64,000 nt of DNA, from NCBI RefSeq assembly GCF_022968825.1, contig NZ_JALHKS010000002.1, positions 248,001 to 312,000 of the forward strand. The letters run 5' to 3'. The position numbers and the translations under genes were made by a program. Positions 2,523-6,236 of the stretch are shown here, in pieces; position 1 is the first letter of the stretch, and every line of letters begins with the position of its first letter. The notes under the pieces were generated by a model. The model made no database searches, had not been told where the DNA came from, and saw only the letters and a list, made by a program, of their open reading frames with translations. The stretch is from Chryseobacterium salipaludis (GTDB lineage Bacteria > Bacteroidota > Bacteroidia > Flavobacteriales > Weeksellaceae).

Positions 2523-3290
2523 ATGAAAAAACCGCTGATATTGGTTACCAATGATGATGGAATTACCGCTCCCGGAATTCGCCACCTGGTGGAATTTATG
2601 AACGAAATTGGCGACGTGGTGGTCGTGGCGCCCAACAGCCCGCAGTCCGGAAAGGGACACGCCATTACAATTAACTCAACGCTGACCTTTGAGGAAATTA
2701 CACTAGACGGGCCGCAATCCGATTATTCCCTGAGCGGCACGCCGGTAGATTGCGTGAAGTTTGCCCTGAATCAGATCTTGACGCGCAAGCCGGACCTGGT
2801 GGTTTCAGGAATTAACCATGGTGCGAATTCTTCTATCAACGTGATTTACTCGGGAACCATGAGTGCCGCTGTGGAAGCGGGCGTGGAAGGTTTACAGTCG
2901 ATTGGTTTTTCACTGCTCGATTTTTCTTGGGACGCCGATTTTACACAGGCCAAAGAGTACATTCAGGATATCGTCCGGAAAGTGCTGGACAACCCGCTGC
3001 CCAAAGGTGTGGTGCTCAACGTGAATATCCCGAAACTGACGAAAGAAGAAATTAAAGGTGTGAAAGTTTGTCGCCAAGCAGATGCCAAATGGGAAGAAAA
3101 CTTCGATGAGCGGATTAATCCGCACGGTAAAAAATACTACTGGCTCACCGGCTATTTCAACAATATGGATTCCGGCCACGATGCGGATGAAACCGCTTTA
3201 TCTGATGGCTATATTTCCATCGTTCCGGTTAAGTTTGATCTGACGGCGCATGAACATCTCGCGCAGCTGCGCGGCGTGTTGGAATGCTGA
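2523..3290 (+). CDS. surE: 5'/3'-nucleotidase SurE
   Basis: A metal-dependent nucleoside monophosphate phosphatase of the SurE family, 255 residues as usual for the family. The N-terminal VTNDDG motif supplies the metal-binding Asp pair; SGTPVDCV and SGINHGAN are the other family signatures lining the active site. I start it at the ATG of 2523 (MKKPLILVTNDDG) because the TAnnTTTG promoter box lies just upstream and a longer TTG-initiated frame would overlap it. It is transcribed alone, divergently from prc, and a large hairpin follows its stop codon. Confidence 0.95.
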   Translation: MKKPLILVTNDDGITAPGIRHLVEFMNEIGDVVVVAPNSPQSGKGHAITINSTLTFEEITLDGPQSDYSLSGTPVDCVKFALNQILTRKPDLVVSGINHGANSSINVIYSGTMSAAVEAGVEGLQSIGFSLLDFSWDADFTQAKEYIQDIVRKVLDNPLPKGVVLNVNIPKLTKEEIKGVKVCRQADAKWEENFDERINPHGKKYYWLTGYFNNMDSGHDADETALSDGYISIVPVKFDLTAHEHLAQLRGVLEC

Positions 3291-3312
3291 TTTATTTTAA
3301 AGAAAAAATGTG

Positions 3313-3343
3313 AACCCGCCGCAAGCTGAGCTTGCGGCGGGTT
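3313..3343. terminator. Strong hairpin between surE and the photolyase cassette
   Basis: A 14-bp perfect stem (3313-3326 with 3330-3343) and a 3-nt loop. On the minus strand it is followed by a T-rich tail (cacattttttcttt), so it probably stops transcription converging from the cassette as well as that from surE. Confidence 0.75.
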
Positions 3344-3600
3344 AATGTTGGGACAGATATGTAGTATAGTCCTTGTGCATTGTTTTTATTCGATTTAGCG
3401 AATTGTTACGCATTTCAGAGAGGAAGCCCCGAGACCTCACATTATTCTAGCATCAATATTATTTAATCACGAAAACCTCGAAAGGATAATATCATTAGGT
3501 AAATTTTTAAAGACAGCTGCAGATTCTCTGCACGACCTAGAAAAACAATCGAATAGCTATACCGAAATCAGCATGTGTACAAATCTCTAGTTAAATTTAA
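3344..3600. other. Non-coding spacer without recognisable content
   Basis: About 260 nt of AT-rich sequence between the surE hairpin and the parS-like site. I see no convincing frame, no promoter box in a useful place and no tRNA-like fold. It may be eroded sequence belonging to the decayed cassette next to it, but nothing in it is recognisable. Confidence 0.4.
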
Positions 3601-3616
3601 TGTTTCACGTGCCACC
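3601..3616. other. parS-like site (13/16)
   Basis: TGTTTCACGTGCCACC matches the left half and centre of the ParB site TGTTTCACGTGAAACA and keeps the outer AC, giving 13 of 16 positions. It is the weakest by match count of four such sites at 3.6-16.7 kb and lies at the 3' end of the DUF2256 remnant. Confidence 0.4.
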
Positions 3617-3747
3617 TACCTTTTGCATTTCTTACTGCAATATTGCACCTCCTCCTAAACCTTTTTCCATTTCTTGCGCCAGCTGAACGGGCGGCCGCAG
3701 GTTTTGCAGACCTTGGTGGGAAGGTGTTGTTTCTTTATTCCTTTCAT
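3616..3747 (-). pseudogene. DUF2256 zinc-ribbon-like small protein with an in-frame TAG
   Basis: Starting at the ATG of 3747, the frame gives a DUF2256 protein: LPTKVCKTCGRPFSWRKKW, then KKV, a TAG at 3655-3657, then EEVQYCSKKCKR and a second TAG at 3616-3618. In DUF2256 proteins a Trp stands where the first TAG lies (KVW followed by acidic residues and YCS..C), so one G-to-A change (TGG to TAG) explains it. Both Cys pairs are intact on either side. The ATG overlaps the flavin reductase stop (ATGA), as in a translationally coupled operon. It is most likely a recent pseudogene; readthrough or a sequence error cannot be excluded. Confidence 0.8.
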
Positions 3748-4373
3748 AACGGTTCGGGTAGGCGGTCTTTTTTGGCGTAGGACAGCCGTTCAATTTTTTG
3801 AGTGGTATGGTAGCTGTCCAGGCCACTGCAGGTTACCGTTTCAGCCTGTTCCAGATCGATGAAACCATCGCTGCCGATGAATTCCTCCGCTACCAGCACG
3901 TGCGTGATTTTCCTGATCAACAAGGTAGTGTCGTTGATTTCGATATCCGTCTTTTGGACCAGTTCACAAGCGAACTTGATATGGCTTTCCCGGACGAAAG
4001 GTGCGTCAAAATCAAACCGGTATTCCGGATGCAAGCCGGTCGCGCTAAATTCGCTGTCACCCTGAGGGTATTTAGCACTGCACTGGTGTGCCTGCCGTAC
4101 TATACCCGGATGCACGTGGTTGAGTGTGTACTTCCCCATAGCCATTATATTTCCCAGCGTATTAAAGCCAGGTTCTGCCGGACGGACGATCAGGCCGCAT
4201 AAAGCAGGATTCGCGCCCAGGTGAAACAGGCTGCTGAAGACTGCGAGGTTTTCTTTCCCGTCCGTACTGGCAGTTCCTACCAAAACCAGGCTTTTAAATC
4301 CGCCTAAAGAATTGATCAGATTACCGCGAAAGCGGGTTTCCAGTGATTCGAGATCCGCACTGTGATAAACCAT
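3744..4373 (-). CDS. Flavin reductase-like FMN-binding protein
   Basis: 209 residues of the DIM6/NTAB flavin reductase-like family (split-barrel FMN-binding fold), with typical stretches GFKSLVLVGT, FSSLFHLGANPALCG and, near the C-terminus, SGLDSYHTTQKIERLSYAK. In many bacteria this subfamily sits beside a photolyase or cryptochrome and DUF2256, where a role in supplying reduced flavin is plausible but, as far as I know, unproven. Here it is the only unbroken member of the cassette. Its stop overlaps the DUF2256 start by 4 nt, and the photolyase remnant ends 21 nt upstream. Confidence 0.85.
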   Translation of the reverse strand: MVYHSADLESLETRFRGNLINSLGGFKSLVLVGTASTDGKENLAVFSSLFHLGANPALCGLIVRPAEPGFNTLGNIMAMGKYTLNHVHPGIVRQAHQCSAKYPQGDSEFSATGLHPEYRFDFDAPFVRESHIKFACELVQKTDIEINDTTLLIRKITHVLVAEEFIGSDGFIDLEQAETVTCSGLDSYHTTQKIERLSYAKKDRLPEPL

Positions 4374-4394
4374 AAAACTTTGTATTGAATTAAA

Positions 4395-5022
4395 TTATGT
4401 TAGGTGTTTCAAACACTGTTTCCAATATTTTGAAAAGGAGGGAAAATAACCGGTCACTTGCGGGAATAGCCAGTCGCGCGGAACTTCTGTTCCCTGATAG
4501 TGCACGTTGCTTGAATGTTCTTTATAATAGAAAATAGTTTTCGCTCCTGTTAATTTCCACTGCGCCGGAATTTTCCAATGACAGCGCGCAATATTGCATA
4601 CTACAGGAAGCCACATACATACGTACATGGTTATGCATATAGCCGGTCGCATATAATTCCTTAATAGCGGAATCGAGCGCCTGAATTCCGGTTTGGTGTT
4701 GCAATACCACAGCCGGAAGGCCGTACTCACAAACTCCTTCCTGCGGACTTTTTAAATCAAAATCAATTTCGGCGCCGCGTGCCTGCCAGACGCGCTGGTT
4801 GTATTCGCGCCAGCTGAGCTCACGAAGCAGCGTCATCATTTCTGGCAGCTGAAAACCGCGCTGCTTCAAGCTGGAAATAATTTGCCTGCCACTAATGACA
4901 CCACGGGAAATATAGGGCGATAAGCGCTTAACAGCACCGTCCGTGAAGTTGCGGGTTTTATCGTAAGCAACCGGATCGATGGCTTCAACTTGCGTCAGAA
5001 TATCGGGATAGTTGGTGGTCAT
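4395..5022 (-). pseudogene. Deoxyribodipyrimidine photolyase/cryptochrome remnant, frameshifted and internally deleted
   Basis: The frame from the ATG at 5022 carries photolyase motifs: TRNFTDGAVKRLSPYISRG, LRELSWREYNQRVW and the FAD-pocket motif GYMHNHVRMYVAS. Near 4600-4608 the reading switches frame: the expected continuation (CNIARCHWKIPAQW) lies in the neighbouring frame, which continues to the stop at 4395. Between KIPAQW and the C-terminal block (IFYYKEH, DWLFPQVTGYFPSF) only about 9 residues remain, where relatives carry a long stretch of the FAD-binding core including the W-x-N-x-L-S-W-Q-W region. That implies a deletion of a few hundred bases. The protein cannot fold as a working photolyase. 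Its ATG overlaps the ancestral stop of the upstream TIGR03643 gene. Confidence 0.85.
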
Positions 5023-5302
5023 CTTTTGGAGATATGATTCCGGCTGATGGTCCGCTGTCGGGAACATTTGAAGCGTTTTATTTCTTCGGAGCGAAGCTGC
5101 TGATGTTTACTGCTCACTTGCTGTTCACACGTTGCCGCCACCGCCGGAAAGACGCGGGTTTAAGCTCGGCACGCATCAGCCGGATGACACCGCTTTCGGG
5201 CAGCCCGAACTGATATTCAATCGCTTCAAAGGGCGTACGGTCTTCCCACGCCATTTCAATAATACGGTTCGTTTCCGCCGGAGTAAAAGAAAGGTTTGCC
5301 AT
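5019..5302 (-). pseudogene. TIGR03643 family small protein, frameshifted
   Basis: The start (MANLSFTPAETNRIIEMAWE) is a typical TIGR03643 protein, found beside photolyase, flavin reductase and DUF2256 genes in many bacteria; its function is unknown. The open frame ends early after RRWRQRVNSK at 5114. The expected conserved tail (KHQQLRSEEIKRFKCSRQ, then RTISRNHISKR) follows at once in another frame and stops at 5019, where its TGA overlaps the photolyase ATG by 4 nt. This shows a single frameshift near 5117-5125 in a formerly coupled operon. The truncated 62-residue product might still be made. Confidence 0.82.
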
Positions 5303-5375
5303 TCTTTGTTTTTGGAAAGCTTCGCGGCAAAGAAAAAGCCATTTACAGGAAATGGCAAATGATTTATATTTCTTT

Positions 5376-5383
5376 CAAAAATA
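5376..5383 (-). promoter_or_regulatory. TAnnTTTG box upstream of the photolyase cassette
   Basis: Minus strand reads TATTTTTG, 73 nt before the TIGR03643 ATG. It is the only box of this type in the 190-nt gap after fabG, so it may drive the decayed cassette, but the match alone is weak evidence. Confidence 0.35.
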
Positions 5384-5492
5384 GCCCCGACGGAAACGGC
5401 ATCCTCCCGGGCAGGCGACAGCCGGACTGGGAGATACAGTGGACGGCGGGACGCAGCTTCAGATAAAGCCGGACCTTTCTGCTCCTAAAAAA

Positions 5493-6236
5493 TTAAGTGA
5501 GCATTCCGCCGTCCACGTTCAGCACCTGGCCGGTGATGTATGCCGCCATATCGCTCGCCAGGAACAGGCAGGCATTTGCCACATCCTGCGGTTGCCCGCC
5601 ACGCTTCAGGGGAATTGCTTCGCGCCAGCCCTGTACTGTTTTCTCATCCAGTGCACCGGTCATTTCGGTTTCGATGAAGCCCGGTGCCACGGCGTTGCAA
5701 CGGATATTTCGGGATCCCAACTCGAGTGCGATGGATTTGGTGAAGCCAATTACGCCTGCTTTGGACGCCGCGTAATTCGCCTGGCCTGCGTTTCCTTTCA
5801 CACCGACCACGGAGGTCATGTTGATGATGGAGCCGGAACGCGCCTTCATCATCGGCTTAATCACTGCTTTGGTCAGGTTAAACACAGAATCCAGATTTAC
5901 TTTGATGATAGTATCCCAGTCGTCTTTGGACATGCGCAGCATCAGATTATCGCGGGTGATCCCGGCATTATTAATCAGAATATCCACTTTCCCGAAATCT
6001 TCGATGACCTGTGCCACCAGTTGCTGCGCCGCCTCGAAATCGGACGCGTCGGACTGATAGGATTTCACCTTCGCTGTTGCGCCCAGTTCTTTTTCCAGCG
6101 CCTGTGCTTTATCCACCGAACCGGCGTAGGTGAAGGCAACATCCGCTCCTTCTTTGGCAAATACTTCCGCAATGCCCTTCCCGATTCCCCGTGTAGCGCC
6201 GGTAATTAATACTACTTTACCTGATAATAATCCCAT
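5493..6236 (-). CDS. fabG: 3-oxoacyl-[acyl-carrier-protein] reductase
   Basis: A 247-residue short-chain dehydrogenase that performs the NADPH-dependent keto reduction of fatty-acid elongation. The cofactor motif GATRGIG covers residues 13-19, NNAG is at 89-92, and the catalytic Ser142, Tyr155 and Lys159 are in place (NMTSVVG; YAASK). The C-terminus (CLFLASDMAAYITGQVLNVDGG) is the FabG signature. It follows rsmI by 11 nt, so the two are probably cotranscribed. The strong match across the whole length makes FabG likelier than another SDR. Confidence 0.93.
   Translation of the reverse strand: MGLLSGKVVLITGATRGIGKGIAEVFAKEGADVAFTYAGSVDKAQALEKELGATAKVKSYQSDASDFEAAQQLVAQVIEDFGKVDILINNAGITRDNLMLRMSKDDWDTIIKVNLDSVFNLTKAVIKPMMKARSGSIINMTSVVGVKGNAGQANYAASKAGVIGFTKSIALELGSRNIRCNAVAPGFIETEMTGALDEKTVQGWREAIPLKRGGQPQDVANACLFLASDMAAYITGQVLNVDGGMLT

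Follow-up and report, generated by a model that had tools for sequence, protein, structure and literature searches.

A photolyase-like pseudogene within an apparently decaying four-gene cassette of Chryseobacterium salipaludis

Photolyases in which the FAD domain comes first and another domain follows have been described as NewPHL/SPL and as the picocyanobacterial Phr4-5, Phr6 and Phr7, as set out in two reports (PMC9426592, PMC13274461). Modelling predicts a similar layout for L023, an intact relative of the gene studied here, with the FAD domain N-terminal and a second domain C-terminal as in NewPHL, SPL and Phr6; the likeness is one of domain order in L023 only, and the copy described here is broken. 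In the AlphaFold2 model of L023 (mean pLDDT 96.1), a photolyase FAD domain occupies residues 1-217 and further strands and helices lie at residues 247-364. In Foldseek and VIA comparisons, some 210 residues of this model matched 1qnf and 1dnp (VIA with 1dnp: Z 15.9, rmsd 2.3, 213 aligned), the VIA rows mainly covering residues 1-223. Like class I photolyases and DASH cryptochromes, this group has the PF03441 FAD domain, and both L023 and part of our gene gave weak matches to TIGR02765 and NF007955. In contrast to those enzymes, the N-terminal PF00875 domain of classical photolyases had no match in the frames of the window or in L023, L152 or L058 (E up to 1), and all NCBIfam photolyase matches fell far under their curated cut-offs.

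The window, that is, the whole stretch of 64,000 nucleotides that was analysed, carries the photolyase-like gene as the second of a set of four genes: DUF2805/TIGR03643, photolyase-like, flavin reductase and DUF2256. The features discussed below are as follows.

5022-5302, minus strand: DUF2805/TIGR03643 gene in two pieces, each in a frame of its own (5302-5120, 5117-5022), from PF10985 and two tblastn pieces
4395-5022, minus strand: photolyase-like pseudogene, FAD domain first and C-terminal domain after, from PF03441 (34.2 bits), tblastn and an alignment with 47 relatives
4522-5067, minus strand: longest remaining open frame of the photolyase-like gene, 181 amino acids, a mechanical entry in the ORF listing
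4600-4608, about 4604-4606, minus strand: site of the frame change in the photolyase-like gene, from homology pieces and translations
4539-4557, minus strand: joint of an in-frame deletion that removed about 153 codons (some 459 bp), from the W-to-K spacing compared with relatives
3744-4373, minus strand: flavin reductase-like gene, intact, 209 amino acids, from PF01613 (68 bits)
3619-3738, minus strand: DUF2256 gene with an internal TAG, from PF10013 (63.7 bits)

We put at roughly 93% the probability that these features represent a recently inactivated photolyase-like gene within a four-gene cassette that is decaying as a unit. The photolyase-like gene probably started at an ATG (5022) that overlaps with the 3' end of the DUF2805 frame. 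A profile search with PF03441 scored above the curated cut-off of 27 bits on the left piece of the gene, over profile positions 3-90 of 203 only. Between 5022 and 4606 the homology with intact relatives stays in a single minus-strand frame, after which it moves to another: tblastn returned the pieces 4606-5022 and 4407-4538 in different frames, and VVCNIARCHWKIPAQW, which begins near 4604, sits in the second frame. An earlier sequence-only reading had placed a frame change near 4600-4608, and these pieces bear it out. The 181-amino-acid open frame would yield a truncated product.

The second lesion is much larger. In the window the W of IPAQW (codon 4559-4557) and the K of YKEH stand at a spacing of 12 residues, compared with 163-182 in all 47 aligned relatives, a net loss of about 153 codons, and both sides of the joint share one frame. 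This spacing and its coordinates fit the deletion joint that the sequence-only reading had proposed near 4530-4558; the two conserved blocks indeed nearly adjoin, as that reading had it, but IPAQW and IFYYKEH lie 7 residues apart rather than about 9. In the alignment of photolyase-like relatives (47 rows), 37 columns are invariant; 12 of these positions went with the deletion, and the 25 still present are all unaltered. Among 50 near-invariant positions, 22 are present in the window and 21 of those are unaltered. The PF03441 score together with the unaltered state of every invariant position still present rules out chance similarity. That same state suggests that the decay is recent.

The lost stretch corresponds to about residues 157-309 of L023 and, because the model of L023 places the FAD domain at residues 1-217, the window copy has lost about the last quarter of that domain together with the greater part of the C-terminal region. 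The 12 lost invariant positions include the block LLDxDxxSN...WQW, which aligned to the same block of the solved photolyases 4u63 and 2j4d and which holds FAD contacts and an electron-transfer tryptophan. A complete FAD-site block is thus missing from the window copy, in agreement with the loss of the FAD core claimed from the letters alone, and any product would keep only the first part of the FAD domain and should not bind FAD. Two lesions, the frame change and the large internal deletion that leaves the frame intact, support the view that the gene is inactive and not simply frameshifted. Short direct repeats at the joint, which the sequence-only reading had suggested looking for, did not appear in the sequence that is left: within 4500-4620 the sole repeated word of at least 6 bases was TGGAAA, at 4577 and 4559, which we take as chance; the lost side would be readable only with a close intact copy.

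A known short family with this architecture would have spoken against an inactive gene, and none was present among 77 photolyase-like relatives (counted after removing copies from the window's own genome and duplicated stretches), every one of which has a frame of 258-378 residues; this and the other counts of relatives and loci are partly dependent, as some loci overlap or share one genome. The three shortest relatives do not make up a short family either: L068 and L064 run off the end of the available sequence, and the match of L079 is itself in two pieces. The WxW core is kept in 76 of the 77, the exception being a diverged relative of 355 residues (L067). Searches for a closer intact copy found none on plasmids (54 records, all below 60% identity) and none in 395 genomes of the class, where 22 had a match at 1e-60 or better, own genome included, and the best other copy was 60% identical. 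The photolyase of the genus, which the sequence-only reading had proposed as a yardstick, proved not to be the orthologue: a match was found in 5 congeners, at only 46-51% identity and located elsewhere. Similarly, the flavin reductases nearest to the window copy are only 60-63% identical to it.

Both small genes of the cassette are also broken, an addition to the sequence-only reading, which covered one gene. PF10985 matched the first part of the DUF2805 gene at 93.2 bits (cut-off 22.5), and its conserved tail, RFKCxxQ...ISKR, lies in another frame in the window, so that no single open frame runs through it; the tail is reached in one frame in 73 of 75 relatives. The DUF2256 gene, at 3619-3735, matched PF10013 well above the cut-off of 25 bits and along profile positions 1-39 of 40, but a TAG interrupts the match, which is hence not in an open frame, compared with 45 of 45 relatives that have no stop. 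The flavin reductase gene alone is intact, and it retains all 21 of the columns whose conservation across 54 rows reaches 95%. The correct scope is a decaying operon and not a single broken gene, and annotation pipelines could record what is left of the operon as small proteins.

The cassette itself has an intact counterpart. In L058, from an uncultured Bacteroidetes MAG, the same four genes stand in the same order, on the same strand and with the same close spacing, all four frames being open, versus one of four in the window. The order DUF2805, photolyase, reductase is found in L023, L024 and L152. Neighbours could be scored at 53 photolyase-like loci, after 27 with too little flanking sequence had been excluded. 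DUF2805 is the immediate upstream, same-strand neighbour at 26 of the 53, the reductase is the immediate downstream neighbour at 6, and both flank the gene at 3, so that the full gene order is a minority arrangement. The 26 loci in which DUF2805 adjoins the photolyase-like gene link two unnamed small families to a photolyase family, and the joint decay of DUF2805, DUF2256 and the photolyase-like gene fits a shared task. Judging from its family, the intact photolyase-like protein would bind FAD and use light to repair UV-damaged DNA, and the flavin reductase would perhaps supply reduced flavin. For the two small families, DUF2805/TIGR03643 and DUF2256, we know of no role. A literature search of limited coverage on the two small families and photolyase returned no description that we recognised as this cassette.

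Two side observations concern these clusters. DUF2805/TIGR03643 and DUF2256 recur beside photolyase-like genes, for example in L027, L043, L053, L058 and L062. In six loci (L046, L047, L054, L057, L062 and L070) a second, longer frame near the photolyase-like gene is weakly FAD-domain-like (about 24-27% identity), so that clusters with two or more photolyase-type genes exist in several relatives.

Could a minimal or split photolyase-like protein still be made and work, as a truncated N-terminal part of 166 amino acids from 5022, with or without frameshifted translation? The retained invariant and near-invariant positions, unaltered in 25 of 25 and 21 of 22 cases, and the frame kept across the deletion joint are what such a protein would show. 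However, its architecture is shared by none of the 77 relatives, the FAD-site block is gone, both small neighbour genes are broken too, and no slippery run was seen by eye at the frame change; we regard this explanation as very improbable. We reject a programmed frameshift in the photolyase-like gene because of the lost core and the broken neighbours. The evidence comes from one strain and a single assembly of 22 contigs, which leaves some room for a sequencing or assembly error behind which the living genome has an intact cassette. Such an error would be possible at a single site for each lesion, but is unlikely in all four lesions, of three kinds within 1.7 kb: a spurious loss of 459 bp, two spurious frame changes and a spurious TAG would all be needed. 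A general sequence error is unlikely because long ORFs cover 87.5% of the window. In addition, the genome is rated 99.99% complete, MurC, RsmI, FabG and SurE next door align near full length to congeners, and among eight neighbouring ORFs checked as possible split genes no family was divided between adjacent ORFs (2 of the 8 had no family match). An intact cassette in the living genome is, on these grounds, scarcely credible.

A different reading grants that three genes are dead and holds that selection maintains the flavin reductase for a different function, the locus being a remodelled single-gene unit and not a dying operon. The reductase is indeed open over its 209 amino acids with every strongly conserved column retained, but it makes up only about 29% of the cassette codons and, by hand arithmetic, four random lesions would miss it about one quarter of the time; its survival alone is therefore no evidence of selection. 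We consider selective retention unlikely, if clearly conceivable, and it is compatible with our preferred explanation as regards the photolyase-like gene. Much the same doubt attaches to the wider scenario, tentatively put, of a foreign photorepair cassette dismantled gene by gene, with the flavin reductase alone kept for a new use and the set shrinking to one survivor.

Under the preferred explanation, a cassette decaying as a unit, horizontal transfer would have brought the cassette into the lineage, where selection would have ceased to maintain it and a deletion, indels and a nonsense change would then have built up; this would be a known, ordinary kind of gene decay. The genome carries an ordinary class I photolyase intact elsewhere (L001, 433 amino acids, with PF00875 and PF03441), which may allow the cell to tolerate the loss. 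Searches of the genome gave no further copy of DUF2805 (E up to 1e-5) or of DUF2256 (E up to 1e-3).

The order MurC, RsmI, FabG, SurE is conserved in all 10 congener regions examined, which were drawn from 30 congeners searched, and FabG shows 79-91% identity to all 30. The cassette, which lies between FabG and SurE, had no match in that slot in any of the 10 regions; there the slot measures 2.5-4.3 kb and is otherwise filled. Matches to the flavin reductase occur in 16 of 35 congeners (39-48% identity) and to DUF2805 in 20 of 35. In a reductase tree of 52 rows, built with the careful setting, the window copy joined G341, from another family of the class, and Kapabacteria/Ignavibacteria rows at 100/98, and 12 of 14 genus rows formed their own clade at 100/95, the other 2 lying elsewhere. 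In a quick photolyase tree the window row formed a long, uncertainly placed branch that fell outside the clade of the genus and did not join Kapabacteria. These sequence comparisons suggest that the cassette is probably foreign to the genus and was gained by horizontal transfer, a reading that rests on one well-supported tree, that of the reductase. GC content, tried as a sign of transfer, gave no difference (0.489 for the cassette and 0.490 for surE; window 0.459). The slot, at 3290-5493 in the window, is variable in the genus (L120-L129), with a GMP reductase-like gene in L120 and other genes in L127, the two whose contents were read, with names assigned by eye. Just after surE, at 3315-3345, a GC-rich hairpin looks terminator-like by eye.
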